51,670 bases of DNA from Pyrenophora tritici-repentis (taxonomy: Eukaryota > Ascomycota > Dothideomycetes > Pleosporales > Pleosporaceae), in assembly GCF_003171515.1 (NCBI RefSeq), contig NW_027093985.1, forward strand, positions 1-51,670, given 5' to 3'. Position numbers and translations under genes: made by a program. This document shows positions 15,956-51,670 of this stretch, piece by piece. Within the stretch, counting starts at the first letter, position 1; every line of letters begins with the position of its first letter. The notes under the pieces were generated by a model that was not told where the DNA came from, did no database searches, and worked only from the letters and a program-made list of their open reading frames with translations.

Positions 15956-16383
15956 CTATTACTACGAGGCTCGGTTTCAGTTACTAAGTATAAGCCTGCT
16001 ATATCCACAACCCTCTTCTCCAGTAGGGGCTCAGGAGTGTAGAGAACTACTCAAGCGATCAATACGGGAAACACTCACATTTTCTAATACCATACCTTCG
16101 GACTACCTACTTCAAGACTGGTATGTGTTGCACGAAACAGCATCTTTCCCAATCCGCTTATACTAAGTACTTATACAATAGCAACCATCTATTTATTAAC
16201 ACACTTGCTTTGTGTTTGCTTGCGCTGGACATTCTCCAGGAGTCGGGTCAGAACTGCGGGAAGGAAAACCGAGCGTTACTTAGCATTGTTGGTGGTTTCT
16301 TTGCTAGGGTAGATATCATGTTGCCGCAAAGTTCTATCTTCGAGGAGGTGTCTAACTTGATGGAGATCCTTTTATATTATTAA

Positions 16384-29566: not shown

Positions 29567-30618
29567 CACAGATGTCAATGAGCAAGCTGAGCGAGCTCAG
29601 CCAATTGGCTTGCTCAGCCAATTGAGCGGAGGCCAGCAGCTCGCTCGGCTCGCTCGGATTGGCTGAAACAGGGCTGTCAGCTCGCTCGGCTTGATGGGCT
29701 CAGTCCCGATTAGGAAAGTTATATAGAAACCTTGGTGTTGAGTTTCTCAGCTAATATCCCACTTATGTACACCGTATTTCGCGTCCATCTCCTCATCGCT
29801 GATAACCCCCTTTACAGGCACCTCACCACTGCCAAATCCAGCTCTTACCCATCGTCGATCGCACTGTATTGCTGCTAGAAGTTGCGGAGAAATGCTGCGC
29901 CGACGGGGCTCGAGGAGGTCACCCAGCTCGCTGAATAAGCGCTCACACTCACAGCTTGAGCCTGGGATTGATAGCATGTCGATAGCAAATTTGCTAAGGC
30001 TAGGGTGGCGATCGCGGAGTTCTACCCAGTATTTTATAGGGTCGACGCCCTCGCCAGCGATCGGTTCGCTGCGTTTCCAAGCCTCATATTCATCTTCCTC
30101 GTTCTCCGTAAGCCCTGCAGGCTCAATAAAGTTGTTGATAAAGTTGCCGCGATTTCTGGAGCATTAACGCGTGTTCTTTTTGCTGGCATTATAGCAACGG
30201 CGAGGTAGATAGTAGCTGCAAATAGAGACGCGTTGATGGAGTATAGATGAGTGTGGTGGGTGATAAGTAGTAAGTGAAGTGTCGCAAAAGGAGAATATTG
30301 TTGCCAGGCGGTTAGCCGGAAATTTAGTAGCTTATTTGCTAGAAATATAGCAAAAAAGAGTGTATTTTATGTTATAACTAGGTTTCGAACTTACGCACTA
30401 CACCTAAAAATCATCGTGAGATTGCCCCTCCACCAAGTCCTTCAGCCCCAAGTTTCCAACCGCCCCATCCAACCAAGCTAAGCAAGCTGACTGAGCGAGC
30501 GCCTATCCCTAAGCTCGCTCGGCTTGCAAGCGCGCATTGCGCGCTCAGCTCATTCGGCTTGGTCAAAACGTCCAAGCCGAGCGAGCTGAGCGAGCCGGCT
30601 CGCTCGTTGACAAGTATG
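29567..30618 (-). mobile_element. Internally deleted hAT element, 1052 bp, copy 2 (inverted)
   Basis: Reverse complement of 16775-17826, the same length and nearly identical. The left flank GTAACGGG and right flank GATAGCGG do not match, so the target duplication is missing, unlike copy 1. The right edge is the boundary with the subtelomeric block shared with 43161 onward. Confidence 0.95.
29747..30163 (-). pseudogene. hAT transposase C-terminal fragment, copy 2
   Basis: Same dimerisation-domain remnant as at 17230-17646, with substitutions such as Ile to Val and Glu-Ala to Gly-Val near the C-terminus. Confidence 0.85.
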
Positions 30619-33600
30619 GATAGCGGGATCAGCTGTGAGAGAAGCGAGGATAGCGAGAGTAGGAAAGCAGGAGCCGCAGGCGCGATAGAAGTAAGAGTAG
30701 CAAGAGCAGTAAGAGCAGGATGTGTAGCCGCGAGGATAGAGGCAATTAAGGTAATTAAGGTGATTGCGATGATTGCGAGGACAGTAAGAGCAACAAGGGC
30801 AGCGCAAGAAAGGCGCGAACGGCAAGGGAATTAACAATTAAGTTAATTGTAGCGATTGCAAGGACAGCGGGAACAGCGAGGATAGTAAGGGCAGTAAGGG
30901 TAGCAAGGACAGCGGAAGCAGCGAGGACAACGAGGACAGCGAGGATTGTAAGGACAGCGGAAGCAGCGAGGATAACGAGGACAGCGAGGATAGTAAGAAC
31001 AGCGAGGATAGTAAGGACAGTAAGAGTAGCGAGGATAGCGAAAGTAGGAGAGTAGCAGTAGCAATAGCAGTAGCCGGAGGTGTATATAAGCTGTAAGAGG
31101 TAAGAGGTAGAAGTAAGGATATTATAAGCAGCAAGGATAGCAGGGGCAGAAGCAGCAACAGGTGCAGGGGTAGTAGGAGTAGTAATAAGAATATTAAGAG
31201 CAGTGCAAGTTATAAGGACAGGGGACAAAGTAAGGACAGTAGAGATAGTAAGAGTATCAGAAGCAGCGAGAACAGAAGCCGTAGGATTGATAGCGAAGAT
31301 ATTAAGAGCAGCAAGGAAAGCGAAAGCAGCGAGGGTAGTAAGAGCAGCGACAAGAGGAGCGGTAGCGGCCGCCGAAACCGCATTTACCGCAGGTGGAGGA
31401 GGCGTAGGAGGTAAGGGGCAGAAGAGAGCAGTAGAGACAGCGGGAACAGCGGGGAAAGGGAGAGCAGCAAGAAGGACGGGGATAGTAGAGATAGAGGAAG
31501 TGGCGAGAGCAGAAGCAGTAATAGGGAGGATTGCGGAATGCGGAGGAGTAAGAGCGGTAGGAGTAAGAGTAGCAAGAGCAGGACGTAGAAGTAAGAGGGG
31601 TAGGAGCAGGAGCAGTAAGAATAGCAGGAGCAGTAAGAATAGCAGGAGCAGTAAGAATAGCAGGAGTAGTAAGAATAGTAGGCGTAGCAAGAGTAGGAGC
31701 CGCAGTGGCGATAGTGTAGAAGCGGCAGTAAACACAGGTGTAGTAGTAGCCGTAGGAATAATAACGAGCATGTTGAGAGCAGTAAGGACGGCAGGAACAG
31801 TGGGAGTTGTAATAGTAGAACCCGTAACTGTAATTAAATAGATCGTAAGAGTGATAGTCACGATAGAAGGAAAAGTTACAAGAATAGTAGCTGTAGCCGT
31901 GGTAGAAGCAAGAGTAATTATAATAGAGGCAAAGATAGTAACAGTAGTAAGAGTAATAAGCACAGTAAGGGTATAGTAAGAGCAAAAGTTTAAAGAAGAG
32001 TTATTTATGTTAAAAATAAGTATGCAGGTATAAAGCAAAGAAAAGAAAGATTCGAAAAGAGAAAGTATTAAGTCGGTGAGATTCATAATCGATAGATAAG
32101 GTAGGTAAAATAGGTATAGTTTGTAGTATAGATTAGATAGTGTTTGAGAAAGAAATCAAGCATAGAATCAAGTAGGATTCAAGGATTAGGATTGTAGTAG
32201 AAGACAGAGCAAGTTATTAGGAATACATTAATAAGAAGATAGAAGAAAAGATTAAGTTCATATAAAAGTAGAGTAATAAGAAGAAGATATCAATAAAAAA
32301 GATATAAGAGATTATGTTTCAATAATATTAAAAAGAGATGTTAGAAAAGAAAGAAGAATAAAAGAAACCCGATATAATTAAAGAGGAGTATAGTAGAGGG
32401 AATAGAAGATAAGTAGAAGAAGAAAGAGAGAGAAAGATAAGGAAGTTTATCGAGAAGGAGATAAGAAGCAGTCGATAAAGAGAAAGAAGGAGAAGTAAAG
32501 AAAATAGGAGGAGAAGTAAAGAAAATAGAAAGAGAAGTAAAGAAAAATATAGAGTAGGGTAAAGAGAGAGAGTAGCGAGAACAGCAGTAGTAATAAAGAT
32601 AAGGATAGAGTTAAGGTACAGTACAATAAGGCATAGTGGGTATTTAAGCAACAGTAGTAAGACGAAGCAGGCCGTGTTAGACGTGCATACAGTAGGTAGA
32701 GTTTAAGTTTACCGACGTAGAATAGTGATAGAGGTATATAGGGTAGTAGATAATGCGATGTGGTATATAGACGGCGGTAGGCGAAGGACAGAGCCGACAC
32801 AAGATACAACAGTATTAGAGAACTAAGAGGCAGTAGGCAAAGGAGATAGTTGAAGAAGTATTTAGGTTGTGTTTAGTATAGCGAGTGGTATAACGTGTGT
32901 ATACAAGCAATAAGAAGACAATAGATGCGGAGGAGATTAGACAGCAGATATAAAAGATTGTTAGTTTCGAGGGTATTTATAGCAAGGTTGTTAGGATTAG
33001 TATAGGGAGGCAAGAATAGAGTAGCATAGGGATAGATAGGAGGTTAGTAGAACAGAGGATTAAAGTAAATTTAATAGAGGGATTCGTAAGACAGTTTTAG
33101 AGCAAGTAGGGGTTAGGGTGCACAGAAACGAATAGGTTAATAAGAGAGTTGTATTAGAGTCAGCCGTTTATAATAGAGGAGAACAATGAACAATAGAGGT
33201 TATTGCAGAGAAGGGTATAGGCCGAGGTAAAGGGAAGAAGAGAGAAGATATAGTGGTAATAGGAAAAGTTTCCGAGTTAGGGTATTTAGTAGATGTTATA
33301 TAGATTAAGTGATAAAAGGGAGTAAATTAGATTAAAAATAAGGAGAGATAGAAATAGATGAAGAGGAAAGGAAAGAAGAGAGAGGAACAGAAGAGAGAGA
33401 GGGGAAGGATGGATGTGGTGGAGAGGAGAGATGAGGAGGGGCAGGGAGGGTTGGAGCAGCAGGAGCAGGAGCAGGAGCGACAAGGCGGGTGGCGGAGGTG
33501 AATACAGCAGCGGCAACAGGAGTTTAGGGAGGTAGAGTAGTGAGGTAGGGAATTAGGATGGTAGGGGAATGGATAGGGAATATGCAAAGGGGCGGATAAT

Positions 33601-34444
33601 GGGCGAAGCGAGGAAAATATAGGGAGATGTTGGTGAGGGGAGAGGGGAAGTGTAAAAGAAGCGATTACGATTGTTTTAGAGCCGATTCAGTTTGAGGGTT
33701 ATTAGGGGTGTTTTTGGTAGGAGGTAGGGTAGGAGAGGAATTATTAGGGACGGTATTAGAAGATAAGAGATGCAAATTAACAGTATAAAGGAGTATTCAC
33801 AGGGGGTTATAGGGGCAGCGTTTAGGTAGACGGAGGTAGGAAAGCGTTAGGGGGCGGGGTGAAAGGGGAGAAGAGAATTTATAGTAGATAAGAAAGGGTT
33901 AGGGTTATAGAATAAAGAGAGGGATAGGTAAGAAATGAATAGAAGAATAAAAATATTCATAAGAAGATAAAGGAGGATTAGATTGCAAGCAAAATAAGGT
34001 AGAAGAGCAATTCGTTAGGTCGTATGTAGAGGGGAAAGAGTGGGTAACAAGATATAGAAGGCGAGTATTAGAAAAGTATTTGGAGGGGCAAGGAGGCGAA
34101 GAGAGACATAAAGAAGAGGAGGAGAGATGTTTAGTGTGTAGACAAGCGGACAAGGAGATAGACAGCAGCAAAGAGCAGTAATAAAGAGGAGATATAGTAG
34201 AGAGGAGGGTAGAGCAGTAGGAGCAGGAGCGACAAGGCGGGTAGTAGAGTTTAATACGGCAATGATAACAGGAGTTTAGGCAGGTAGAGTAGTAAGACAG
34301 GCAATTAGGATAGTAGGGGAATAGATAGGGAATATGCGAAGGGCGGGTGATAAGCAAAGCGAGGACAAAATAGGGAGATGTTAGTGACGGGGAGGAGAAA
34401 TACAAAAGAAGCAGTTAAGATTGTGTTAGAGTAGATTTCGTATA
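30619..34444. repeat. Subtelomeric purine-rich block A
   Basis: Direct repeat of 43161-47337. The first part (about 30619-32000) is a degenerate AGCAGCGAGGA-type low-complexity array; the second is longer-period purine-rich DNA. It starts at the edge of a hAT element and is interrupted at 34445 by a pogo element. A tandem of AGTAAGAATAGCAGGAGC units lies at about 31612-31672. Long minus-strand frames (for example 30755-32086) are Leu/Ser/Thr/Ala-rich and are expected from pyrimidine-rich DNA, which contains few stop codons; I do not annotate them as genes. Confidence 0.93.
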
Positions 34445-36317
34445 ACGTACCTCACGGGCGAGTGGGCCACACGGGCGAGTGGGCCACTCCGCTAAGACCC
34501 CACCAAAACATACTGTTACCTACAGTACTTTCACAATGAGCCAACAACAAAACAATCTACCAGCTTTAAAAGAGGCTCGATTACAGCTTGCTCTCAAGGC
34601 TATCGAACGCGACGCGACGCTGTCGCAGAGACGCGCTGCAGCTATCTACAACGTATCTCGAGTAACTCTTGGGCGCCGACGCGCTGGAATACCTCTTCGG
34701 AGCGATTGTACGCCTAACTCAATGAACCTCCTTAAGACAGAGGAGGATGTAATTGTCCAGCATATCCTTGACCTCGACGCGCGAGGATTTCCGCCCCGAC
34801 TTGCTGCTGTGCAGGATATGGCTAATTCTTTGTTGGCTGAGCGCCACCGCGACCCTGTTGGTCAGAACTGGGCTGCAACCTTCGTCAAACGTCGCCCTGA
34901 GCTTAAGGTCAAATTCAATCGCAAGTATGACTACAAGCGAGCCCTCTGTGAGGATCCTGAGGTTATACAAGGCTGGTTCCGACTTGTGGAGAACACAAAG
35001 GCCAAGTACGGTATCCTTGATGAGGACACCCACAACTTTGACGAGTCTGGCTTCATGATGGGCATGATATCAACTGGAGCAGTAGTCACAGGCTCTGAGC
35101 GTCGAGGACGACCAAAGAGCGTTCAGCAGGGCAATCGCGAGTGGGCTACAGTGATCCAGGGTATCAACGCGACTGGGTGGGCAATCCCACCTTTTATCAT
35201 CTTCAAAGGCAAGAACCACCTCTCTGCCTGGTACAAGGAAGATAACCTACCTCGCGACTGGGTTATTGCAGTCTCTGAGAACGGCTGGACAACAAACAAG
35301 CTTGGTCTAGAGTGGTTAAAGCACTTTGACGCTCACACAAAGAAGAGGACTGTAGGAAACTATCGTCTGCTTATTATCGACGGCCACGAGAGCCACGACT
35401 CGCTCGATTTCCAGCAGTACTGCAAGGATCACAACATTATTACTCTCTGCATGCCTCCTCACTCGTCGCACCTACTACAGCCTCTTGATGTGGGGTGTTT
35501 CTCGCCTTTGAAGACAGCGTATGGCCGCCAAGCCGAGGATCTAATGCGCAACAAGATCACCCATATCACTAAACTAGAGTTCCTACCGTGCTTTAAAGGC
35601 GCTTTTGACGCTGCGATTACAAAGGCCAATATACAAGGAAGCTTTCGAGGCGCTGGCTTAGTCCCATTTAATCCAGAGGCTGTGATATCGACGCTTGACG
35701 TGCGGCTGCGCACTCCACTGCTACCTACCGTCGAGGACGGTCCCTGGCAGTCGCAAACTCCAAGCAATACCCTAGAACTTGGGTCGCAATCAAAGCTGAT
35801 TCAAGAGAGGATTCGAAGACATGTAGATAGCTCACCTACGTATATGGTTGAGGCGATCAAAAGCCTGTCAAAAGGTGCAGAGATGATAGCGCATTCTCTG
35901 GTGTTAATGACCAAGCGCAACGCTGAGCTCCAAGCCGCCAACGAGGCCTCAAGTAAGCGTAGATCATATAAAAGGAAGCGCTTACAGCAGCAAGGGACCT
36001 TAACAATTGATGAGGGCGTGCGACTGACGACTCTTAAGGAGTTTGGGGCATGTAGTGATAGGAAGAAGGCGAAGAAGAGAGTGCGCGTTGAGGCAGGCGA
36101 GCCTAGCCAACGACGCTGTGGACGCTGCGGCGAGGCAGGACATAATATGCGCACATGTAGGCAAGAAGCAGCGATAGATTCTGAGTAGAATAGCCTATTA
36201 CGATTTCTATTTACTATCTTTGACGGTGCTATATAGTCGTGTACAGTCGTGGTTTTAATGGGGTCTTAGCGCAGGTGGCCCACTCGCCCGTGTGGCCCAC
36301 TCGCCCGTTAGGTACGT
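34445..36317 (+). mobile_element. Intact Fot1/pogo DNA transposon, 1873 bp
   Basis: TIRs 34445-34487 and 36275-36317 match over 43 bp with one difference. TA flanks both ends (34443-34444, 36318-36319). Each TIR contains a tandem CACGGGCGAGTGGGCCA motif. Block B has the empty site, reading straight from GTAGATTTGTATA into AGGGTTATTCG near 47325-47347. The transposase frame is open. Structure, empty site and intact gene together make it a candidate active element. Confidence 0.96.
34536..36188 (+). CDS. Fot1/pogo transposase, intact, 550 aa
   Basis: Cut-and-paste transposase acting on the TIRs around it. The first ATG, MSQQQNNLPALKE, lies 49 bp inside the left TIR; upstream codons in the frame are only readable from a GTG within the TIR. 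Domains: psq-type HTH (residues about 10-60), CENP-B-like HTH (about 65-130), DDE_1 core with HNFDESGFMMG (about 170), LLIIDGHESHDS (about 275) and SHLLQPLDVGCF (about 310) giving the three acidic residues. A basic C-terminal coiled-coil-like region follows, then a CGRCGEAGHNMRTC zinc knuckle near the end. Length is usual for Fot1/Pot-type enzymes. No internal stop or frameshift is seen, unlike every other transposase in the window. Confidence 0.95.
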   Translation: MSQQQNNLPALKEARLQLALKAIERDATLSQRRAAAIYNVSRVTLGRRRAGIPLRSDCTPNSMNLLKTEEDVIVQHILDLDARGFPPRLAAVQDMANSLLAERHRDPVGQNWAATFVKRRPELKVKFNRKYDYKRALCEDPEVIQGWFRLVENTKAKYGILDEDTHNFDESGFMMGMISTGAVVTGSERRGRPKSVQQGNREWATVIQGINATGWAIPPFIIFKGKNHLSAWYKEDNLPRDWVIAVSENGWTTNKLGLEWLKHFDAHTKKRTVGNYRLLIIDGHESHDSLDFQQYCKDHNIITLCMPPHSSHLLQPLDVGCFSPLKTAYGRQAEDLMRNKITHITKLEFLPCFKGAFDAAITKANIQGSFRGAGLVPFNPEAVISTLDVRLRTPLLPTVEDGPWQSQTPSNTLELGSQSKLIQERIRRHVDSSPTYMVEAIKSLSKGAEMIAHSLVLMTKRNAELQAANEASSKRRSYKRKRLQQQGTLTIDEGVRLTTLKEFGACSDRKKAKKRVRVEAGEPSQRRCGRCGEAGHNMRTCRQEAAIDSE

Positions 36318-36319
36318 TA

Positions 36320-36389
36320 AGGGTTATTCGTTATGTATTTAGTAGAGGGTTAGGCAGGAGAAATAGTAGGGGTAGGAGAGGAATGTTAC
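36320..36389. repeat. Block A remainder after the pogo insertion
   Basis: AGGGTTATTCGTTATG... to GAGGAATGTT matches 47338-47408. Homology to block B stops at about 36389, where unique sequence upstream of the helicase gene begins. Confidence 0.85.
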
Positions 36390-36981
36390 GGATCCATAGA
36401 CTCGCTCGGCCCATGGCCCCCATATCGATAAGATCCTTATCTTATCGGACTAGCGCCTTGGCGCCCACAGCATAAGTTCGGGCTCACAACGTAGATAGCT
36501 CGATAGCTTGTATCTTGTCAAATCCAATCTTTCTTGATCGATCCCTAACCCAGGGCGCCAAGTGCACCATTATAAGGGTGGAGTTTTTTGTTAGGGATGG
36601 AGACTACGCGTATAGCGGGTATATATCAGAACCAGGGGTATGGTGGAGTATTCTTCGTAAGTACGGTGGAGTTATATTCCCTAGGCCGATTTACACCAAA
36701 TTTGGACAGGTAACTCAGCGTACGTAGGCGCATAATCTGACAGATTTACAGCGCAGTAGACTATGTGGTTGAGGAGCTTAGGGTTTGGCGTTCTTGGTTA
36801 GGGTTACGCGTTTAGGGGGTCAGGAGGTCGCGAGGCTCGGCACCCCGCCGCGCGCGCGCCGCCGGAGTAAGCGCCGAGCGATCGACAGGGATCCGTGCTG
36901 AGAGCAGAGCGTCGGCATATAAGAAGCTAAGTAGAGTTGGTCAGCGTAGGTATTATCAAGTATTGTTACTTTTATTTCAAT
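36390..36981 (+). promoter_or_regulatory. Upstream region of the telomere-linked helicase gene
   Basis: Non-coding, less purine-biased than its surroundings. It includes a GC-rich CpG-dense segment (36838-36890), a TATAAG box at 36918-36923 about 60 bp before the ATG, and a short telomere-like GGTTAGGGTTA at about 36798-36808. Confidence 0.6.
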
Positions 36982-38134
36982 ATGTCCGAACCTAGTAAAG
37001 AGTGCCAGTATTTCGAGCATATACCTGAGTACTGCATAGCAGCATGCAGAGAGTGCAGATATGCAGTGTGGCCAGATCAGATCGAGGGCCATTTACAGAG
37101 GCAGCATAAGGTCAGTCATAAGGAGGCAGAGGCAGTTGGACAGCAGATTCGCAGCTGGGCTGGGCTAGTCCAGTATCCCAGCGAGCTTGAGGTGCCGAGT
37201 GGTGTTCCAAAGCCCGTACGGCAGCTACCAGTACACGTAGATGGGATGTTGTGCCAGCTAGGTTCAGGCCAGTGTCAGCGGGTATTCCGTACCAGCAAAA
37301 GCTTGAAAAAACATTGGCGTATAGATCACGGATGGTCAGCAAGCAGCAGGGGAGGACGGCCAAGTCAAACTAAGCAGAAGAGCGTGCAAGCGCAGATGGA
37401 GAAGGGGTACCGGCTAGTCCATTGCCAGCGATTATTCGGGAGCCGGCACGGATCGCAGTATTTCCAGGTGCAGCCGCCCGACGAGGATGGCCCCGACGTC
37501 GTGCCTGTAGACGGGGCAGCAGCATGGGCGCAAGTGGGCGAGCAGATGGCCAAGGCATGGCAGGATATCGAGAGGCGTGCGCAGACGACGATCCAAGAGG
37601 GCGAGCGCGACGAGGTGAACCCATGGCTGGAGCGGACGCAGTGGTTGCCGTACCTAGTGGGCATGGAGAGGCCGGATTTGTTAGCGTGCATCGAGGAGCC
37701 CGTGGCAGAGCCCGATGCCAGGCAGGAGCAGCAGGCCGAGCCGGTGGAAGCAGCGATTTGGGCAGCTATGGATGGATTGGCGCGGTTCAGCCAGGCATCG
37801 ATTATTGACCGGATTGGCGTGTTTATACGGTTGGAGGCAATTCGCACAGAGATGCACCAAACCCGGTTCCAGCCGTTGCAGCCGTATATGGACAAGGACG
37901 CCATTGTCAAGCACACACGACCATGGCAGCAGATGTTAATGTTTTTTGCACGCACACAGAAAGAGCACGCGTGGAAGAGCCCCAAGTATCGGTTCACGCG
38001 GCGGCAGCGAGAGGCATGGGAGGTGTTAATCGAACAGGCAAAGCGGAGCATAGAGGGAGACGAAGAAGATGAAGCCGAGGATATGGACGAGGAGAGAGAA
38101 GAGCTGGACGAGGAGATGATGGACGACATAGACG

Positions 38135-38296
38135 TAGACTCCGCAACAATCAATTCAATCCGGTCACTCTCCTAGACCCACTTACCTATCTAGGTAGGGC
38201 TTAAACTCCTATAGGTAACTACTAGGCTTAAAGCGGTAATCAATCAATCCAATCTGAACCTTCTAGGACCCACTTAATTGATTGTTGCGGACTGTG
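38135..38296 (+). mobile_element. 162-bp MITE copy 2, in the TLH gene
   Basis: Flanked by CATAGACG at 38127-38134 and 38297-38304. Sits in the acidic linker before the recombinase-like region. It adds 170 bp in all and introduces a stop 12 codons in. Confidence 0.96.
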
Positions 38297-39495
38297 CATA
38301 GACGAGTCGATAGAGGTAGCCGAGGAAGAGCCAGGTCAGGGAGAAGGCCCCGAGCCTAAGAAGTTGTCTAAGATACAGAAAGCGTGTTTGGAGTTTTGCA
38401 TTGCATTACTTAACCACCGCATCACCCGTAGAGAGTATGACAGCCCGCTGGTGTGCGCGTTGGCGGTGCTGGGCGTCAAGGAGGACGGGTGGAAGGGGCC
38501 GGAGCAGTACCCGCCGATATTGTCGGCGGTGATCAAGATCGCTCGGTTTATGGTCGTGCAGAAGGGACTAGAGATGTCCGGGCCCGACGAGGATAGCGGC
38601 GATGAGACGGACGACGACTTGGATGACAGCGCGTACGAGAGCGGGCCGAGCCAGCGACGGCGTCCCAAGGGGTGTTTGCAGTTAGTGCAGAGGATGATGG
38701 ACCGGTTTATGGTGCGCGGCAGCCATAGCCCCATGCAGTGGATGTTGGATTTGCGGACGTATGGATTAAAGATCCATTACAACACTACAACCCGCGGGCA
38801 TGTAGAGTGGACGAACGGCGACGAGCTGCTGTACAAAGAGCTGCATTTTAGCATGGCGCAGTTCCGCGGCATGGTACATGGGCTAGCTAGCGAGAGCCGG
38901 CGATTATTGACAGAGGAGTTGATGTTTGGCAGCAAGGCAGCGCCGGTGCCAGCAGTGCCATGGGAGAGCATACGTGACAACCCAACCGACGAGCGGCCAG
39001 GATGGAATTTTTTGAAGGATCATCGCACAAGCATGCCCGTCGACGGCGAGAGGTGGTTATTTGAGCGGGTAGGTAAGAGCGCCAGCATCCGGAGTCGGTT
39101 CATGAAGCCCGGGACGCAGTCAGGGGTAGACCGACAGGCAGTGGAGCGGTACATGGACCGGGTGGTAGAATTTCGCGAGAAGCTGGCGGTGTTGATGCAT
39201 ATGACGGGCGGGCAGCCAGCGCGAGGGCCGGAGCTACTGAGCGTACGGCATAGCAACACAGTGCAAGGGGGGCATCGCAATATATTCATCGAGGACGGCA
39301 TGGTAGTGTTTGTGACGCGGTACCACAAGGGATACAAAGTCAGCGGCGACGTCAAGATTATCCATCGATATTTGCCGCGCGAGGTGGGCGAGCTAGTAGT
39401 GTGGTACATGTGGCTGGTGTTGCCGTTCCAGCAGCGGCTCGAGGCGTTGGTGTGGGAGAAGGAGGCAGTTTCGTCGCATATGTGGCCAGCAGACC

Positions 39496-39657
39496 TAGAC
39501 TCCGCAACAATCAATTCAATCCGGTCACTCTCCTAGACCCACTTACCTATCTAGGTAGGGCTTAAACTCCTATAGGTAACTACTAGGCTTAAAGCGGTAA
39601 TCAATCAATCCAATCTGAACCTTCTAGGACCCACTTAATTGATTGTTGCGGACTGTG
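39496..39657 (+). mobile_element. 162-bp MITE copy 3, in the TLH gene
   Basis: Flanked by AGCAGACC at 39488-39495 and 39658-39665. Same orientation and apparently the same sequence as copy 2. It separates the first recombinase-like Arg motif from the later motifs and the helicase. Confidence 0.96.
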
Positions 39658-41306
39658 AGCAGACCCCAGCGGCCGCAAGTGGACGACCGATCGGCTGCGG
39701 GAGGCGTTGAAGCGCGAGAGCCGGATCGCGATGGGCCAGGAGTGGACGTTTGCCGGGTACCGGGAGATGGCGATTGGCATCAGCCGGCGGTTTTTGCGTG
39801 GATCGACAGCGTTCCAGGCAGATGAGGGCGAGGAGAACAAGGAGTGGGCTGAGGAGCAGGCAGGAGATTCGATTGCCGACGAGCAGGCGGGCCATACGTC
39901 GCACGTGGCGGGACTGGTATACGCGCGAGGGATCATGGAGCAGTCAGGGGCCGTGGCGGATAGGCGGCAGCAGTTCCGGGCATCGAGCACGGATTGGCAT
40001 AGATTTTTGGGCTTCCAGGCAGGCGTGGACGACCAGAGAAGAAGCAGCAAGCGGAAGAGAGCGCCGTTTGAGAGCGAGGCAGACGAGGCAAGGGTGGATC
40101 GGTGGCAGCGGCTAAGGAAGATGGACGCGAGGGCGCAGCTGAAGCGCATGATGGGCGAAAAGGCCGAGTTCCGGGGCGTTCAGGAGGCAGCGATCAAAGC
40201 CATCACAGCAGGCGAGAGTCCCGTAGTAGCGGTGATGCCGACGGGGGCAGGCAAGAGCTTGTTGTTCATGTTGCCGGCGTGGGCAGAGCAGGGCGGCACG
40301 ACGGTGGTGGTAGTGCCGTTGATCGCGTTGCGTGGCGACATGGCACAGCGGTGCAAGAAGCTAGGGATATCGTGCGTAGAGTGGCAGAGTCGGCGTCCGC
40401 CAGACGCAGCAGCGGTGGTGTTAGTGACGCCCGAGTCGGCAGTTGGAGAGGAATTTGCAACGTTTTTGAACCGGCTACGAGCGACGCGGCAGCTAGATCG
40501 GATTATTATCGACGAGTGCCATATTGTGTTAAACCGGCAGTACACGTTCCGCAAGCAGATGCAGCAGCTAGGCAAGCTGGTGGCTGTAGAGACGCAGATG
40601 GTCATGTTGACAGCAACGTTGCCACCCAGCGAGGAGGACGAGTTATTCCGGCGAATGCATTTTGAGCGTGGGCAGGTAAGAATGTTTAGGGCACCGACAG
40701 CACGGAGCAACATAGCGTACCGGGTGGTAAGGGTAGAGAAGGAGAGGAAGAGACAGGAGGTAGAGGCAACGGTGTTGGCGATGGTACAGCAGAAGGTCCG
40801 AAAGTATAAGAGCGGCAAGATTGTAGTGTACGGCAACTCAGTGCCAAAGGTCAAGGGGTTAGCCGAGAAGCTCAAGTGCCATGCGTATCATCACCACGCG
40901 GTTGGCAAGGCAAGCATGTTGGGGGAGTTCATGGGCGGCAAGCAGCGGGTGATTGTGGCAACCAGCGCGTTGGGCATGGGAGTGGACGTGCCCGATATCC
41001 GGTGCATTGTCCACATGGATTGGCCGTTTAGCGTGTTGGATTACGCGCAGGAGAGCGGGCGAGCCGGGCGAGACGGGGAGCGGAGCGAGGCGATCATGAT
41101 GGTGCAGGACGGCGAGCAGCGAGCGGCGGATGACAAGCAGGGGGAGGCGGAGCAGCGGTTGGTGCGAGCATACGTCGAAGGCATAGACGAGGCGGCGACA
41201 TGTAGACGGGTAGTGTTGGACGGGTATTTGGACAGGCGCGAGGCCGAGCGAGCTCGGTGCGAGGAGGGAGAGGAGAGGTGTGACGTATGCATGAGAGCCG
41301 ACGGGG

Positions 41307-41450
41307 AGGAGATGGAGGAGGAGGAGATGGAGGAGGAGGAGATGGAGGAGGAGATGGAGGAGGAGATGGAGGAGGAGATGGAAGAGATGGAGGAGGTGGA
41401 GGAGGTGGAGGAGGTGGAGGAGATGGAGGTGGTGGAGGTGGCCGAGGGCG
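41307..41450 (+). repeat. GAGGAGATG-type minisatellite inside the TLH gene
   Basis: Degenerate 9-15 bp units of GAG/ATG codons encode an acidic Glu-Met-Val run between the helicase domain and the C-terminal Cys-rich part. The frame stays open. Confidence 0.85.
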
Positions 41451-42076
41451 GCAGCAGCAACGAAGAAGAGGCGGAGACATTGGAGAGGGAGCAAGAAGAG
41501 GCGCGGCAGGCGTTTAATCAGCAGCAACGAGAGCAAGGCGGCCCGCGACAGAGATTGATACAGCAGCGGCAGCAGGAGTTCGCCGACGTCGAGTGGCTGC
41601 GTAGGCAGCTGGCGCAATGGATAAACCGGTGTGGGTTATGCGAGGCGGTAGGGCAAGGATCGAGCGCACACGACGTACGGCAATGTTGGCGACAGGAGAG
41701 CCAGCGGATCAAGGAGTCGATTAAGAGGATGGAAGAGACAATTAAGTTTGAGCGTTATTCGGGCTGTTTTTGGTGTGGAGTGCCGCAGGAGATATGCAAT
41801 CGGTGGGAAAGGAATAGTTTTGGGCGATATCAGAGAGTCCAAGACGGGGATTGCCAGTATAGAGGGGTATTAATAGGCGGGTTATTAAGTATAGCATTAG
41901 GGCGGAGCGAGGTAGGAAACCGATGGACGGCGCGGTTAGAGGAGTTCGGGGTTAGTAATTCAGGAGCAGGGCCGACGTTGTTTGAGTTTTTAGGAAAAAA
42001 GCGATTGTTAGAGACGGTTGAGAGCAATAACTTAGCAGGAGAGTTTTGTTGGATTACAAGATTAATAGGCGAGTAG

Positions 42077-43160
42077 AGGAAATATAGAGAGTTGTAACGT
42101 TGACGAGGGTAGCTCCAACAGCTCGAGTAGGTCGGATAGTGTAAGCAGCGATAAAGGCAAGAGCAGCAAGATCAGCGAGAGCGTAGGCAGGGTTAGCAGC
42201 AAGAGAGATAGCAGCAACAGTGACGATAGTAGCAGCAGTAAGAGTAGCGACGAAGGCGAGGGCAGCGAGAGCAGTGATCAAGGCGAGAGCAGCGAGAGTA
42301 GTGACGAAGGCGAGGGTAGTAAAGATATTAGAGGTAGCGAAAGCAGCGGCAACAGCGAGAGCAATGAGAGCAACGACAAAGACGAGGGCAGAGAAGGTAA
42401 CGAGAGCGGCGAGAGCAGTAAGAGCGCAGGCAGCGTTGGTAGCGAGAGCAATAGCTGCAACAGTGGCGATAGTGGCGATAGCGAGGGCAGCGACGACGGC
42501 GAGGATGGCGAGGATGGCGAGGATGGCGAGGACAGCGAGGGCAACTTGATGGCAGGTAGCGAAAGCAGTAATAGCAGCTTGAGCAGGGAGGAAAAGCGAG
42601 GGTCGTGACGACGGCGAGAGTAGCTCCGATAGCGAGAGCAGCAAGAGCGAGAGCAGCAAGAGCGGCAAGAGCAACGAGAGCGAGGCAGGCGAGGCAGGCG
42701 AGAGCAACGAGATGGCAAGTAGCGAGAGCGAGGCAGGCGAGGCAGGCGAGAGCAACGAGATGGCAAGTAGCGAGAGCGTAGGGAGCGAGAGAGGCGAGAG
42801 AAATAAGAGCAGCGACATGATAGGTACCGTTGGCAGCGAGAGCATCGAGAGCCGCGCATATAGCGAGAGTAACGAGAACAGAGCGAGTAGCGAGAGCAGC
42901 GACGACGGTAAGGACAGCGAGAGCAGGAGCCGCAGCGGCGAAAGGAGTTGTAGAAGCCGTAGCAGCGGTAGGAAGTGAGAAGCAGCGAGAGTAGCGCGAG
43001 CAGTGGGGGACAGCAGGGACAGCGAGAGCAGTAGGGAAAGTAAGAGCAGGGGCAGAAGTAGTTATAGCGGCCGCAGGCGTAGTAGGAGCGGTGGGGAGTG
43101 AGGAGCAGAAGCGAGGATATCGATAGCAGCGAGAGCAGCGAGGACGGCGGGGATAGTAGG
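42077..43160. repeat. Low-complexity AGCAGCGAG-type array after the TLH gene
   Basis: No gene. Degenerate purine-rich short-period repeat; two exact 48-bp units (GAGCGAGGCAGGCGAGG...) lie at 42678-42773. It continues into block B without a sharp change in style. Confidence 0.8.
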
Positions 43161-46100
43161 GATAGCGGGATCAGCTGTGAGAGAAGCGAGGATAGCGAGA
43201 GTAGGAAAGCAGGAGCCGCAGGCGCGATAGAAGTAAGAGTAGCAAGAGCAGTAAGAGCAGGATGTGTAGCCGCGAGGATAGAGGCAATTAAGGTAATTAA
43301 GGTGATTGCGATGATTGCGAGGACAGTAAGAGCAACAAGGGCAGCGCAAGAAAGGGGCGAACGGCAAGGGAATTAACTATTAAGTTAATTGTAGCGATTG
43401 CAAGGACAGCGGGAACAGCGAGGATAGTAAGGGCAGTAAGGGTAGAAAGGACAGCGGAAGCAGCGAGGACAACGAGGACAGCGAGGATTGTAAGGACAGC
43501 GGAAGCAGCGAGGACAACGAGGACAGCGAGAATTGTAAGGACAGCGGAAGCAGCGAGGATAATGAGGACAGCGAGGATAGTAAGAACAGCGAGGATAGTA
43601 AGGACAGTAAGAGTAGCGAGGATAGCGAAAGTAGGAGAGTAGCAGTAGCAATAGCAGTAGCCGGAGGTGTATATAAGCTGTAAGAGGTAAGAGGTAGAAG
43701 TAAGGATATTATAAGCAGCAAGGATAGCAGGGGCAGAAGCGGCAACAGGTGCAGGGTAGTAGGAGTAGTAATAAGAATATTAAGAGCAGTGCAAGTTACA
43801 AGGACAAGGGACAAAGTAAGGACAGTAGAGATAGTAAGAGTATCAGGAGCAGCGAGAACAGAAGCCGTAGGATTGATAGCGAAGATATTAAGAGCAGCAA
43901 GGAAAGCGAAAGTAGCGAGGGTAGTAAGAGCAGCGACAAGAGGAGCGGTAGCGGCCGCCGAAACCGCATTTACCGCAGGTGGAGGAGGCGTAGGAGGTAA
44001 GGGGCAGAAGAGAGCAGTAGAGACAGCGGGAACAGCGGGGAAAGCGAGAGCAGCAAGAAGGACGGGGATAGTAGAGATAGAGGAAGTGGCGAGAGCAGAA
44101 GCAGTAATAGGGAGGATTGCGGAATGCGGAGGAGTAAGAGCGGTAGGAGTAAGAGTAGCAAGAGCAGGACGTAGAAGTAAGAGCCGTAGGAGCAGGAGCA
44201 GTAAGAATAGCAGGAGTAGCAAGGGTAGGAGCTTTAAAGGCGGCAGCAACGAGGGTGTTACAAGCAGCGAAAATAATAGGAGCAGGGAGAGTGGTCGCAG
44301 TAAGGATAGCGATAGAAGCGAGGTTGGCGACAGCAGGGACAGTAGTAGTAGCAAGAATAGCGAGAGTAGCGAGAGCAATAGCAGTGAGAGCTAGAGCATT
44401 AAGAGTAGCAGCAATAAGAGCAGTAACCGTAGGAGTAGGCGCATTAAGAGTAAAAGCTGCAGGAGTAAGAGCAGTAAGGGCGGAAATAGTAGGAGCGTAA
44501 TTAGCGAGAGCAGGAGCAGCGAGGACAGCAGGAGCAGCTGGAATGGCGAGAGCAGCAAGGACGGAGTGGATAGCAAGAATAGGAAGCGTAGGGGCCGCAG
44601 TGGCGATATTTGTAGAAGCGGCAGTAAACACAGGTGTAGTAGTAGCCGTAGGAGTAATAACGAGCATGTTAAAAGCAGCAAGGACGGCAGGAACAGCGGG
44701 AGTTGCAATAGTAGAACCCGTAACCGTAATTGAATAGACAGTAAGAGTGATAGTCGCGATAGAAGGAAAAGTTACAAGAATAGCAGCCGTAGCCGTGGTA
44801 GAAGCAAGAGTAATTATAATAGAGGCAAAGATAGTAACAGTAGTAAGAGTAATAAGCACAGTAAGGGTATAGTAAGAGCAAAAGTTTAAAGAAGAGTTAT
44901 TTATGTTAAAAATAAGTATGCAGGTATAAAGCAAAGAAAAGAAAGATTCGAAAAGAGAGAGTATAAAGTTGGTGAGATTCATAATCGATAGATGAGGTAG
45001 GTAAAACAGGTATAGTTTGTAGTATATATTAGATAGTGTTTAAGAAAGAAATCAAGCATAGAATTAAGTAGGATTTAAGGATTAGGATTGTAGTAGAAGA
45101 CAGAGCAAGTTATTAGGAATACATTAATAAGAAGATAGAAGAAAAGATTAAGTTTATATAAAAGTAGAGTCATAAGAAGAAGATATAAATAAAAAAGATA
45201 TAAGAGATTATGTTTCAATAATATTAAAAAGAGATGTTAGAAAAGAAAGAAGAATAAAAGAAACCCGATATAATTTAAGAGGAGTATAGTAAAGGGAATA
45301 GAAGATAGGTAGAAGAAGAAAGAGAGAGAAAGATAAGGAAGTTTATAGAGAAGGACATAAGAAGCAAAAGATAAAGAGAAAGAAGGAGAAGTAAAGAAAA
45401 TAGAAAGAGAAGTAAAGAAAAATATAGAGCAAGTAAAGAGAGAGTAGCAAGAACAGCAGTAGTAATAAGGATAAGGATAGAGTTAAGGTACAGTACAATA
45501 ATGCATAGTGGGTATTTAAGCAACAGTAGTAAGACGAGGCAGGCCGTGTTGGACGTGCATACAGTAGGTAGAGTTTAAGTTTACCGACGCAGAATAGTGA
45601 TAGAGGTATATAGGGTAGTAGATAATGCGATGCGGTATATAGACGGCGGTAGGCGAAGGACAGAGCCGACACAATATACAACAGTATTAGAGAACTAAGA
45701 GGTAGTAGGCAAAGGAGATAGTTGAAGAAGTATTTAGGTTGTGTTTAGTATAGCGAATGGTATAACGTGTGTATACAAGCAATAAGAAGATAATAGATAC
45801 GGAGGAGATTAGACAGCAGATATAAAAGATTGTTAGTTTCGAGGGTATTTATAGCAAGGTTGTTAGGATTAGTATAGGGAAGCAAGAATAGAGTAGCATA
45901 GGGATAGATAGGAGGTTAGTAGAACAGAGAGTTAAAGTAAATTTAATAGAGGGATTCGTAAGACAGTTTTAGAGCAAGTAGGGGTTAGGGTGTACAGAAA
46001 CGAATAGGTTAATAAGAGAGTTTTATTAGAGTCAGCCGTTTATAATAGAGGAGAACAATAAACAACAGAGGTTATTGCAGAGAAGGGTATAGGCCGAGGT

Positions 46101-47408
46101 AAAGGGAAGAAGAGAGAAGATATAGTGGCAATAGGAAAAGTTTCCGAGTTAGGGTATTTAGTAGATGTTATATAGATTAAGTGATAAAAGGGAGTAAATT
46201 AGATTAAAAATAAGGAGAGATAGAAATAGATGAAGAGGAAAGGAAAGAAGAGAGAGGAACAGAAGAGAGAGAGGGGAAGGATGGATGTGGTGGAGAGGAG
46301 AGATGAGGAGGGGCAGGGAGGGTTGGAGCAGCAGGAGCAGGAGCAGGAGCGACAAGGCGGGTGGCGGAGGTGAATACAGCAGCGGCAACAGGAGTTTAGG
46401 GAGGTAGAGTAGTGAGGTAGGGAATTAGGATGGTAGGGAATGGATAGGGAATATGCAAAGGGGCGGATAATGGGCGAAGCGAGGAAAATATAGGGAGATG
46501 TTGGTGAGGGGAGGGGGAAGTGTAAAAGAAGCGATTACGATTGTTTTAGAGCCGATTCAGTTTAAGGGTTATTAGGGGCGTTTTTGGTGGGAGGTAGAGT
46601 AGGAAAGGAATTGTTAGGGGCGGTATTAGAAGGTAAGAGATGCAAATTAACAGTATAAAGGAGTATTCACGGGGGTTTATTAGGGCAGCGTTTAGGTAGA
46701 GGGAGGTAGGAAAGCGTTAGGGGCGGGGTTAAAGGGGAGAAGAGGATTTATAGTAGATAAGACAGGGTTAGGGGTATAGAAGGAAGAAAGGGTTAGGGTT
46801 ACAGAATAAAGAGAGGGATAGGTAAGAAATGAATAGAAGAATAAAAATATTCATAAGGAGATAAAGGAGGATTAGATTACAGGCAAAATAAGGTAGAAGA
46901 GCAATTCGTTAGGTAGTATGTAGAGGGGAAAGAGTGGTAATAAGATATAGAAGGCGAGTATTAGAAAAGTATTTGGAGGGGCAAGGAGGCGAAGAGAGAT
47001 ATAAAGAAGAGGAGGAGAGATTTTTAGTGTGTAGACAAGCGGACAAGGAGATAGACAGCAGCAAAGAGCAGTAATAAAGAGGAGATATAGTAGAGAGGAG
47101 GGTAGAGCAGTAGGAGCAGGAGCGACAAGGCGGGTAGTAGAGTTTAATACGGCAGTGATAACAGGAGTTTAGGCAGGTAGAGTAGTAAGACAGGCAATTA
47201 GGATAGTAGGGGAATAGATAGGGAATATGCGAAGGGCGGGTGATAAGCAAAGCGAGGACAAAATAGGGAGATGTTAGTGACGGGGAGGAGAAATACAAAA
47301 GAAGCAGTTAAGATTGTGTTAGAGTAGATTTGTATAAGGGTTATTCGTTATGTATTTAGTAGGGAGTTAGGCAGGAGAAATGTAAGGGGTAGGAGAGGAA
47401 TTGTTCGG
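43161..47408. repeat. Subtelomeric purine-rich block B
   Basis: Direct repeat of block A. Relative to A it contains about 330 extra bases near 44215-44560 and lacks the pogo element (empty site near 47330). Substitutions and small indels separate the copies, so the duplication is not brand new. Minus-strand Leu/Ser/Thr/Ala-rich frames recur here as in block A. Confidence 0.93.
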
Positions 47409-50400
47409 GGCAGTATTGGATAGTACGAGACGCAAATTGATAGTGTAACAGAGTATTAATAGGGGGGTTAATAGAGGAAGAGGTAGGGTAGAGGGAGGTA
47501 AGAGAGTAGTGGAGGGCGCGGTTAAAGGGGTTAGGGGTAGAGAGAGGAAGGGTCAGGAGAGGAAGGGTCAGGGAGGGTAGAGAGGATCAGGGAGGGTAGA
47601 GAGGTCAGGGAGGGTAGAGAGGATCAGGGAGGGTAGAGAGGATCAGGGAGGGTAAAGAGGGTTAGGTATTATAGTATAAGAAGATAACTAGAGAAAGTAA
47701 GTAAAAAGAGTTAAGAATAATAAAGTGGATAGTAAATAATATATAGGGGGTTTTAGAGAGGAGGAAATATAAGAGAGTTTACTAGAAAATAAGAAAGAGG
47801 GGTTTCAGAGTAGGCAGAAGCGTAAAGCAAGAGCATAGGGCAGAGGAAAAGAGGAAAAGAGGTAGAGTTTAAAGAAGGCCGCCGGTTGCGGTAAGGAAGA
47901 TGCAAAGGCGAGAGTAGTAGAAGAGAATATAAGAGAGGATTATATGTTAGGGGTAAATAGGTAAGAGGGGGCGGGGATTTAGGGGCGCAAAAGGAGGTAG
48001 AGAAAGAAAATACAAGAGAGGTAGAGGTAAAGGGTTAGAAAGAGAGTTAGAATAGAATTTTTATAAGATAAGGTAGGTTTAGAGGACGCAGAGTTGTAGA
48101 GCGAAGTAGAGGGTAGGGTGTAAGAGTAGAGAGTAAGGAGTTAAAAGAAGTTAGATAGGGCGTATAAGTAGTAACACCCCGTTTTTAGGGTTAAGAAGTA
48201 TTTAGGAGGAGAAAGGGAGAAGTAGGAAAAGAAGAGGGAGAGTAAGAGTAAGCCGTAAGGTGTCACAAAGAGGGTAGAGTAAGAGTAGAGGAGAGAGTAG
48301 AGGGGGTGGTGGGTGGACCCGTAAGGTGTTACAAAAAGGGTGGAGTAAGAGTAGTTATTGTAGGATTAATTAGGTTATAGGAACGCAGGCGGTGGAGTGA
48401 GTTCCGGGGGCGCAGTACAGCAAGTCAGACGGGGCAGATAGGACAGACAAGGAGGCGAAACAAGTAGTAAGGGGGAAGAGGAGGTTTCACAAGTAGGTAG
48501 GGCGAAGAGAGGGTTTCATAGGTAAGTAGGATATAAAGAGAAAGGGGAGTGTTAGGAAGAGATAAGTAAGGTATTATAAAGAAGAGGAGTATGTGTTATA
48601 AGGGTAGATAGTAGCGTGTAAAGAGTAGAGTAAAGAGTAGAGTAAAGAGTAGATAGTAGAGAGTGTAGGAAGTTAAGAAGGAGTAGAAGTGGTAAAGGAA
48701 GAGAGGGAGTAGGTAATAAAAACGGTAAGAGAGAGTAAAACGCAGAAGGAAAAGTAAAGAAAGTAGGTAAGTAAAGAGAAGTAGTAGGTAGTAGAAGAAG
48801 AGAAGTAGAGAAATAAAGAAAGGTTACAGGGTTAGGGAGAGTAAGAAGGGTAAGGGAGTAGGGATAATAGAAGAGGATAGAAGAGATAGTAAAAGAGAAA
48901 AAAGAGAAGAGATATAAGAAGAGAGAAAGAGTGAAGAAGAGAGAGATGATAGTTAATATAATATAGAAAAGTAAGAAAATAGATATAAGAGAATAGAATA
49001 GTAATAAAGAGTAAGAGTAAGAGCAGAAGTAAAGGAAAGGAAGAGAGAGAAAAAGGAAAATGAGAAGTAGAAGTGAAGAAGAAAGAGAGCAAGAAAGAGA
49101 GCAAGAGTAAAGAAAAGGGTAAGAGTAGAAGTAGAAGTAGTGAAAGCGGTAAGAGAGAGTAAAGTAGGTAGTAGTAGAAGAAAGAAGTATAGAAAGGAAG
49201 TAAAGAGGAGTAGTAGGTAGTAGAAAAAGAGAAGTAGAGTGAGTAAAGAAAGTCGGAGAAGAAAGAGAAAAAGGGTGAGAAGAGGTAATGAGTAAGGAGT
49301 AGGAAGAGAAAGGTTAGAGAGTAGAGTTAAAAGTAAAAATTCGAAAGGGTTAGTAGAAGGAGAGAAAAAGGAAGGAGTAGGGAGTGAGGTAAGTAGGAGA
49401 GAAAGAGGTAGAAAGAAGAGGAAATAGGGAAAGTAAAGTAGATCAAGAGAGAGGAAAGGGAAGTTAGAGGAGTAAAAGAAGTTGAGAGAGGAAAAGAGGG
49501 GAGGTGTAGTAGTAGAGGGAGAGGGTAAGGGAGAGATTGAGGGTAAGGAGAGATTGAGGGTAAGGGAGAGATTGAGGTAAGGAGAGAGTGAGGGTAAGGG
49601 ATTTTAGGGAGGAGGAAATACAAGAGAGTTTAATAGAAAGCAAGAAAGAGGGGATTGAGAGTAGGCGGAAGGGCGAAGGGAGAGGGTAGGGCAGAGGAAA
49701 AGAGGTTAAGTTTCAAGAAGCCGCCCGTTGCGGTAATAATAATACAAAAGCGAGAGTAGTAGAAAAGAATATAAGAGAATATTATATTTTAGAGGTAGAT
49801 AGATAAGAGAGGGCGCGAGTTGTAGACGCAAAATAATAGTAGAGAAAGAAAATACAAGAGAGATCGAGGTAAAGGCAAAGAAAGAGAGTAAGAAGAGGAG
49901 TTTTATCAAGGTAAGATAGATTAAGGGGGCGCAGAGGGTAAATTGTAAGAGTAGAGAGTAGAGAAAGAAGAGAGAGAGAGTAAGAGTAAGCTGTAAGGTA
50001 TCACAAAAAGGGTAGAGGAGGGGTAGAGTAGAGAGAAGAAGTTTAACAAGTATAAGATAAAAGAAAGAAGAAATATAAAAGTAGAGAGAAGTAAAGAAGA
50101 AGAAGAGAATCGAAGAAGTATAGGAGGATAGAAAGAAAAGAAGGAGGTAAACGAAAAGAGAAAATAAATAAGAAGAGTATAAAAGAAGATAGTTAGAAAT
50201 TAAGACGAAGTAGATAAGGAAAGAGGTATATTAGAAGAAGAAAGGATAAAGAGAAAAGAGAGGAAAGAAAAGTAGATTATTAAAAGAAAGAAGAAGGTAA
50301 GAGTAGAAGTAAGCGTAAAAGTAAGAGGAAAGAGAAAGAGAGTAAGAGTACGAGTAGGAGTAAAGGTAGTAATAATAGTATTAGTGAGTGTAAGAGTAAA

Positions 50401-51592
50401 GGGAATAATAAGAATAAGAGTAACGGTGATAAGGAGGGAGAAATAGAAGAGAAAATAAAAAAAGTATTATAAAGCGGTAAGAAAAGAAGAAGAAAATAAA
50501 GACAAAGGGAGAAATGTAAAAAGTAGAAAGAAGAGAAAAGAGAGTTAGAAAGTAGAAAGTAAGAATAGAAAAGTAGTGATTAGAGAGTAAGGAGAAGGAG
50601 TAGAAGTGCAGTATGTATAAAGAATAAATTAAGGAGAAGATAGTAGAGAAAAGATTAGAGGAAAGAAAGGTAAAAGTGAAAAAGGTAGAAAGAGGAAAGT
50701 AGAGTAAAGAAGATAAAGAAGAGTAAGAAAGGGACAGTAGAGAAAAGAATAGGAAGAGGTAATAGGTAGAAAGTAGAAAGAAGATAATAGTAGAAAAAAA
50801 AGAGAAATAGGTAGAAGAGTAGAGAGAAGAAGTTTAATAAGTAGAAGATAAAAGGGAGAAGAAATATAAGAGTAGGGGAGAGTAAAAAAGAACAGAGTTA
50901 AGGAAGAGGAAATAAGAAGAGTATAAAAAGAAGATGGTATGAAGTAGAGATAAAGTAGAGAAGAGGAGAAGAAAATTAGGAGAAGAAAAGATCGAGGGTA
51001 AGAGAGGGAGAAGAAGATAAGAAGAATAGAGAGAGAGATAAGATTGTAAGTAAGAAAAGAATAGAGGTAATAGTGAGAGTAGAGGTATTAAGAATAGTAT
51101 TAGTTAGTATAATAGAAAGGGTAATAGAGATGGAGAAATAGAAGTAGAAGAGAAGAAAGAAAAAAGGAAATTAGAGGAGAAAGAGGTAAAAAAAGGATAA
51201 GGAAAGAGAAAAAAAGGAGATGAGAGATAAGAGAAGTAGAGAGAGTAGAAGAAAAGAAAGAGAAAAAGAGGAAGTGAAGAGAGGAGGAGAGAAAGTGAAA
51301 GAGAAGAGGGGAGAAAGAGAAGAGAAGAAATAAAGAGAATAAAGGAAAGTAGAGAGTGAAAGGGTAGAAGAGTAGAAAAGAAGAGTTTATAGAGTAAAAG
51401 AGAAGAAGTAAAGAAAGTAAAGAGTGAAGGGATAGAAGAAGAAGAGTAGGGAATTAAAATGAAAAGGTAGGAGAGAAGAAGTAGAAAGTAAAGAAAATAA
51501 GAATAGGAGGTATAGAGAGTAGAATTGGAGAGTAGAAGAAAGAGGAAGTTAGAGGAGAGTTAGAAGTTAGGAGAGTTGAGGGGAGGGTGGGT
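47409..51592. repeat. Telomere-proximal polypurine region
   Basis: No gene. The top strand is almost all A and G: 51241-51300, for example, has three T, no C and 57 purines. Internal structure: a 19-bp GATCAGGGAGGGTAGAGAG tandem at about 47560-47660; a diverged direct repeat of roughly 380 bp (about 47755-48140 and 49605-49945, each containing GCCGCC.GTTGCGGTAA); a further repeat pair (about 50030-50400 and 50820-51120); and three copies of a GTAAGGTRTYACAAARAGGG motif near 48255, 48331 and 49993. Confidence 0.85.
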
Positions 51593-51670
51593 GGGTTAGG
51601 GTTAGGGTTAGGGTTAGGGTTAGGGTTAGGTTAGGGTTAGGGTTAGGGTTAGGTTAGGGTTAGGGTTAGG
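51593..51670 (+). repeat. Telomeric repeat array (TTAGGG)n
   Basis: About 13 TTAGGG units to the end of the window, including two TTAGG variants near 51625-51635 and 51650-51656. The G-rich strand runs 5'->3' outward, so this is a right chromosome end. The array is short, probably because the assembly stops inside the telomere. Confidence 0.98.

Follow-up and report, generated by a model that had tools for sequence, protein, structure and literature searches.

Telomere-linked RecQ helicases of Pyrenophora tritici-repentis: a predicted tyrosine recombinase domain and an exact, CT-targeted unit end

The window analysed here is the whole of a 51,670-base contig (C12) of Pyrenophora tritici-repentis (NCBI RefSeq assembly GCF_003171515.1, NW_027093985.1; genome 40.9 Mb in 41 contigs), which ends in telomere repeats and carries a gene for a telomere-linked helicase (TLH). 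Among the matches listed, the nearest named proteins come from the same species, at 100% identity over the searched regions. Such genes, named after their helicase, have been described in fungi since 1998 (according to the reference list of PMC5576322); those of Magnaporthe (TLH), S. pombe (tlh) and Ustilago (UTASa/UTASb) have in common a RecQ-like helicase, a subtelomeric position and multiple copies. The locus raises the question of what the protein does besides unwinding DNA, and whether this bears on its place at chromosome ends. An initial annotation of the window had proposed that a tyrosine recombinase-like domain is fused to the helicase in a self-spreading or telomere-rearranging protein. 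On the predicted models and residues given below, a fused domain with a tyrosine recombinase fold is very likely real, and it is somewhat probable that the recombinase-RecQ protein joins the unit encoding it to new chromosomes, replacing their ends.

The window copy was not one continuous gene: two near-identical 162-bp miniature inverted-repeat transposable elements (MITEs) cut it into three separate frames, and its ATG was found at 36982, with an OrsD domain at the start, and not at 38305. The middle frame (434 residues, 38232-39533) includes the first Arg and the Lys described below and matched no Pfam family. An intact natural copy of 1,611 amino acids (P0004) was located on contig C7 (L024:1969-6804), and its domains run in the order OrsD/C2H2 zinc fingers, recombinase domain, RecQ helicase. 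In the window copy, Pfam placed OrsD at the start and the DEAD and Helicase_C domains at the end, and matched RecQ_Zn_bind weakly (E 0.016). The features of the TLH class, namely RecQ-type helicase domains in subtelomeric, multicopy genes of one orientation, were all present.

The residue set of tyrosine recombinases (R, K, R, H/W, Y) occurs in order in the TLH family. All four motifs first reported were found at the codons assigned to them, and a fifth fitting residue, the beta-hairpin Lys, was added (Table 1). In an alignment of P0004 with the best 120 of 445 homologues (56-100% identical over the searched region), R718, K753, R841 and Y894 were kept in 120 of 121 rows and H885 in 119, one row being gapped; the conservation check proposed with the initial annotation thus returned four near-invariant residues (119-120/121). 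A further search was read for the best 120 of its 448 matches. The spacing between His and Tyr is 9, equal to that of H333 and Y342 in lambda Int. Mean conservation was highest in the recombinase region (0.75), followed by the stretch preceding it (0.73), the helicase (0.71) and OrsD (0.57). The ratio of replacing to silent substitution (dN/dS, by NG86) was 0.14 for the window against the intact copy (residues 640-808; 10.5 silent and 5.5 replacing changes) and 0.087 for the C1 copy against the intact copy (16 silent and 5 replacing changes).

Residues ~600-900 had been taken for a recombinase fold, and the catalytic-domain fold of the tyrosine recombinase superfamily was predicted in two models from two subfamilies; the structural matches of the TLH domain were tyrosine recombinases. 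Neither an unrelated fold nor variable residues were found. The relation to known recombinases comes entirely from this predicted fold and the active-site residues.

The same residues occur, again in order, in a second family. P0125 (L021:2169-5411), a single-copy gene in a chromosome interior, encodes an OrsD and a recombinase domain and no helicase, and is ~24-32% identical to TLH. In an alignment of P0125 with the best 120 of its 282 matches, many from Fusarium, R737, K771, R862, H902 and Y911 were kept in 118-119 of 121 rows; the position three before the second Arg is mostly R or Q. A profile-profile comparison linked the TLH and OrsD families at E 2.4e-59 over 820 columns. Twelve columns were invariant in 56 hand-picked sequences of both families, five of them being R, K, R, H and Y; because sequences lacking a residue were left out of this set, which was picked for spread (P0131, P0227, P0239 and P0242, with a residue lacking or changed, and P0243, with two lacking), the twelve columns describe the picked set only, and the fuller residue counts are those of the two 121-row alignments. 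These data suggest that OrsD proteins have, or once had, recombinase function. If so, the large fungal OrsD family (DUF3505 by its older name) would be made up of helicase-less recombinase relatives of TLH, and an activity would be predicted for a family that Pfam names merely after the gene cluster of one member.

Comparison of chromosome ends showed that homology starts at a single base, ~320 bp ahead of the open frame, and that the DNA upstream differs (the C7 and C9 units have a common flank). The TLH ATG lies 393 or 435 bp from this 5' end. A 35-base pattern of the 5' end gave 31 matches in the genome, 30 of them subtelomeric or on small contigs and one a diverged interior relic. Setting aside the relic and adding the variant units of the window and C1 gave 32 units, all of which start at ...CT followed by AACCCAGGGCGC, at 24 distinct, unrelated sites; the junctions of C22 and C36, offset by one base, were counted as a single site, and 25 strings thus give 24 sites; the C36 unit is one C short in its CCC. 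The window and C1 units are ~74% identical to the others in the 5' region, yet have the common terminus CTAACCCAGGGCGC. A TLH fragment was found within 14 kb downstream and on the same strand for 32 of 32 5' ends (the fragments listed are mid-domain matches and do not include all short ones). All 20 units on contigs C1-C10, and that of the window, are oriented toward the nearer contig end; the remaining 11 lie on contigs of at most 44 kb, where this test says little. A unit is carried by 18 of the 20 ends of C1-C10. Homology continues into the telomere at all six compared ends where one is assembled (C4, C7, C8, C9, C10 and C12); contig C2 stops inside the tail, and C1 was compared short of its end. 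As far as sequence allows recognition, the recombinase-helicase is the only gene of the ~15-kb unit. The interior relic stands at C10:2505212 (L064), ~2.5 Mb into a 4.3-Mb contig.

A copy of the flank without the unit was found for 20 of the 24 sites (alignments ending at most 12 nt before the junction were considered; two empty copies have diverged from their flank, C3R being 93% and C7L 87% identical). The junction dinucleotide was CT in 19 and TT in one, and at the latter the joined copy likewise reads TT. The number of CT junctions has a binomial probability of ~1e-20 at the CT frequency of the flanks, a value valid for a blind join. The empty sites gave the target motif CY^CTNNC, with C at -2 and C at +5 in 13 of 20 sites each; among random sets of CT sites, any one offset reached 13 of 20 in 1.7% and two offsets in 0.015%. 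These two positions lie outside the shared 2 nt and are not accounted for by 2-nt homology. The target of the window unit is the end of a repeat whose copies are often paired ~7 kb apart, in the manner of long terminal repeats (LTRs), and the flank at 36400-36544 was 100% identical at all 40 scored genome places. Both flank copies examined that lack a unit read GATCGATCC followed directly by CTCACA, and at the window joint GATCGATCC is followed by CTAACCC. One further target lies within a MITE.

Blind repair is not expected to define so exact an end, and we infer that the fused recombinase-helicase is what joins the unit. An enzyme-made unit end is likely; that the recombinase domain is its maker is the best explanation and, taken whole with the catalysis it presumes, is modestly favoured. 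The self-spreading or telomere-rearranging role first suggested is supported by the exactness and sequence preference of the 5' unit ends, and the agent making these ends is inferred. In the proposed mechanism, the zinc fingers would bring the protein to the 5' end of the unit or to telomere repeats, the Tyr would cut at AACCC and at the target CT, and strands would be exchanged between unit end and target with the help of the helicase. Crossing over once with any CY^CTNNC site would transfer the unit entire, with its telomere, and discard the old end; one such event would suffice, since the unit terminates distally in the telomere. In G2, copy number would rise if the changed recipient segregated together with an untouched donor. 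The helicase might unwind DNA at the crossover or, alternatively, drive DNA copying that starts at the joint and runs to the telomere. Such a mechanism would explain how one module caps 18 of 20 ends and how ends get replaced, and the recombinase domain and exact end turn the statement that subtelomeres recombine into a testable enzyme mechanism. More tentatively, with the balance slightly against it, the chromosome end itself may be a mobile element, with a recombinase site (CY^CT joined to AACCC) at one terminus and the telomere at the other, and one recombinase-RecQ protein may carry out a one-ended transfer in which other chromosomes have their ends replaced; this would add another architecture to those of two-ended transposons and of retrotransposons that target telomeres.

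Several observations weigh against a recombinase that moves its own unit. In tyrosine recombinases a His is usual at the first position of the HxxR box, with known substitutions; in TLH this His, three positions before the second Arg, is missing, the seven commonest states in 121 rows being A 75, Q 33, P 6, H 2, R 2, S 1 and gap 1. The initial annotation had called the box degenerate, and its suggestion that catalysis may be lost is weakened by the retention of R, K, R, H and Y and by the dN/dS of ~0.09-0.14, which comes from few changes. Sequence profiles gave no link between the TLH domain and known recombinases: Phage_integrase (PF00589) was not among the families of P0004 at E <= 5 and had no match in the genome. 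Foldseek alone gave neither model a match at E <= 0.001, and the predicted local distance difference test (pLDDT) score was below 50 around the catalytic His and Tyr in both (843-862 and 552-570). A join by 2-nt homology also yields CT, and the CT count alone is no proof of enzyme action; an extra copy of one flank (C4R_b in L028) departs 4 nt before the junction; and every junction comes from one genome. Seven TLH fragments had no 5' end upstream, three of them near contig starts (C29, C36 and C21) and the others at C10:46263, C8:19533, C1:9888144 (diverged) and C3:51920 (pointing away from the nearer end). Where the distal end of a unit is assembled it is the telomere, and no second junction or target duplication is visible. 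Finally, only their position and the absence of any other recognisable gene link protein and unit, and an enzyme may act in trans.

A recombinase retired from catalysis, its fold kept for DNA binding only, as in Ndc10, and serving telomere upkeep, with the 5' ends an old accident or the work of another enzyme, is the strongest competitor and is unlikely: the nucleophile Tyr and the two Arg are retained in 120 of 121 rows (118-119 of 121 in the second family), which is stricter than DNA binding alone seems to need, and an exact end at 24 unrelated sites is not the product of an old accident.

Slightly less probable still is break repair, in which broken or eroded ends would copy the subtelomere of a neighbour by break-induced replication, through short homology at interstitial CTAACCC, as proposed for Pyricularia. 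The telomere-like start of the unit, CTAACCC, would suit this, as would the identity between units of different ends, mostly 98-100% over long blocks (89-98% in parts for the window and C1), and replication from interstitial telomeres induced by telomere attrition is proposed in the excerpts of PMC8381367. Against it, the homology would amount to 2 nt (CT, in one case TT), and a 15-kb donor would have had to supply these from one and the same place at every joint; the sequence on the priming strand of an eroded right-hand end is TTAGGG instead of CTAACCC; and the target has C at -2 and +5, beyond the shared 2 nt. Action in trans is improbable. On this view the 5' end would be the work of some other enzyme of the genome, be it a DUF3435 captain, a transposase or the endonuclease of a retrotransposon, with the TLH unit carried along passively. 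In its favour are the 18 DUF3435 matches in the genome and the long interspersed nuclear element (LINE)-like endonuclease/reverse transcriptase and DDE transposases in the window; against it, the end is fixed 393 and 435 bp 5' of the TLH ATG and is the same in two unit subfamilies ~74% identical in the 5' region, as if end and gene co-evolve.

The TLH unit was also compared with known systems. The families found in P0004 were confined to OrsD and helicases; the second domain of Cryptons, GCR1_C, was not among them, nor was a Helitron HUH Rep family found in its Pfam scan. A Starship has its tyrosine recombinase captain as the leading gene of its 5' end, together with a target motif; the TLH unit resembles it in having its ATG 393-435 bp from the 5' end and in its motif CY^CTNNC. 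Starship captains are DUF3435 proteins, however, which TLH is not; the 18 DUF3435 matches (on C2, C5, C6, C7 and C10) include none at TLH loci, and the TLH unit terminates distally in a telomere. Telomere resolvases (TelA, ResT) make hairpin ends, and nothing in TLH units shows hairpins. Academ transposases are not known to be tyrosine recombinases. AcademH, going by a reference title, combines a transposase with a helicase. KolobokH, as described in excerpts of PMC9587614, occurs in fungi only and joins a transposase to a RecQ helicase or helicase, a parallel to TLH in that a DNA-moving enzyme is fused to a helicase; its transposase is of the DDD/E type, and no telomere end is mentioned there. 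Helitrons are an analogy, uniting a DNA-cleaving domain and helicase activity in one transposase (PMC7175516, in part), but theirs is an HUH nuclease and TLH is no member. Cryptons encode a tyrosine recombinase and are DNA transposons of eukaryotes (PMC3212892 and PMC7175516, in part); they have a 4-bp repeat on both sides (PMC7175516). The TLH unit has one exact end with CT and a telomere at the other. The word helicase does not occur in PMC3212892.

Repeats of Colletotrichum higginsianum (DHX_G198 and derivatives) carry a helicase and DUF3505 and occur, in one orientation, at each of the 24 subtelomeres (PMC5576322); in the excerpts of that paper the DHX code denotes Helitrons, homologous recombination is what is discussed for their spread, and no recombinase domain is named. 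Excerpts of other reports describe TLH regions at many Fusarium oxysporum ends (PMC12857005), OrsD in Ustilago UTASb (PMC10532341) and break-driven subtelomere change in Pyricularia (PMC8381367, PMC7367193), likewise naming no recombinase domain for these subtelomeres. A search of the open-access literature returned no report of a TLH recombinase domain or of an exact unit end with a target motif, and no paper on the combination of recombinase and TLH. Subtelomeric, multicopy, RecQ-like TLHs are known; what appears new, as read from sequence, is the recombinase domain fused to TLH and the exact, CT-targeted end of the unit. A TLH of this type (P0050) is recorded under the plant Tanacetum cinerariifolium, probably through fungal contamination.

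Table 1. Coordinates of the TLH unit, its gene and its surroundings in the window.
Feature	Positions	Strand	Remarks
Complete TLH unit	36547..51670	+	Exact 5' end (AACCCAGGGCGCC...) to telomere, ~15.1 kb; identical 5' end in 31 other units
Target flank	36400..36546	+	End of repeat with LTR-pair-like spacing; occurs elsewhere without unit; junction dinucleotide CT at 36545-36546
TLH gene (OrsD - predicted recombinase domain - RecQ helicase)	36982..42076	+	Broken by two MITEs in window copy
OrsD / C2H2 zinc-finger domain	37009..37329	+	Pfam PF12013, E 1.4e-21
Predicted recombinase domain, first piece (box I Arg, beta-hairpin Lys)	38988..39495	+	Residues 640-808 of P0004
Predicted recombinase domain, second piece (Tyr-Arg, His, Tyr)	39658..40015	+	Residues 807-925 of P0004
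Box I Arg codon, R718 of P0004 (PARGPEL)	39222..39224	+	Kept 120/121
Beta-hairpin Lys codon, K753 of P0004 (RYHKGYK)	39327..39329	+	Kept 120/121
Box II Arg codon, R841 of P0004 (FAGYRE replacing HxxR)	39761..39763	+	Kept 120/121
His codon, H885 of P0004 (AGHTS)	39893..39895	+	Kept 119/121
Candidate nucleophile Tyr codon, Y894 of P0004 (LVYARG)	39920..39922	+	Kept 120/121
RecQ helicase DEAD domain	40178..40639	+	Pfam PF00270, E 1.1e-21
Helicase C-terminal domain	40784..41077	+	Pfam PF00271, E 8.3e-15
162-bp hAT-like MITE insertion 1	38135..38296	.	8-bp target duplication catagacg
162-bp hAT-like MITE insertion 2, within recombinase domain	39496..39657	.	8-bp target duplication agcagacc
Purine-rich unit tail	42077..51592	.	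15/15 frames of at least 150 amino acids without Pfam match
Terminal telomere repeats (GGGTTA)n	51593..51670	+	End of contig

The 8-bp target duplications of the 162-bp MITEs are presumably a hAT-like signature. A third near-identical MITE lies in the window at 15792-15956, and further copies are present in TLH units at other chromosome ends. An Rfam scan of 36000-51670 gave no match. The tail of the unit (42077-51592) has an extreme strand asymmetry, with GC skew up to 0.81. Upstream, 30613-34445 is a piece of the purine-rich tail of an older unit, 94% identical to parts of 43155-47337, and its position ahead of the present unit indicates that units have been stacked. Between this older tail and the repeat end joined by the present unit sits a DDE_1 (pogo/Tc-like) transposon (34443-36319) with 45-bp terminal inverted repeats.

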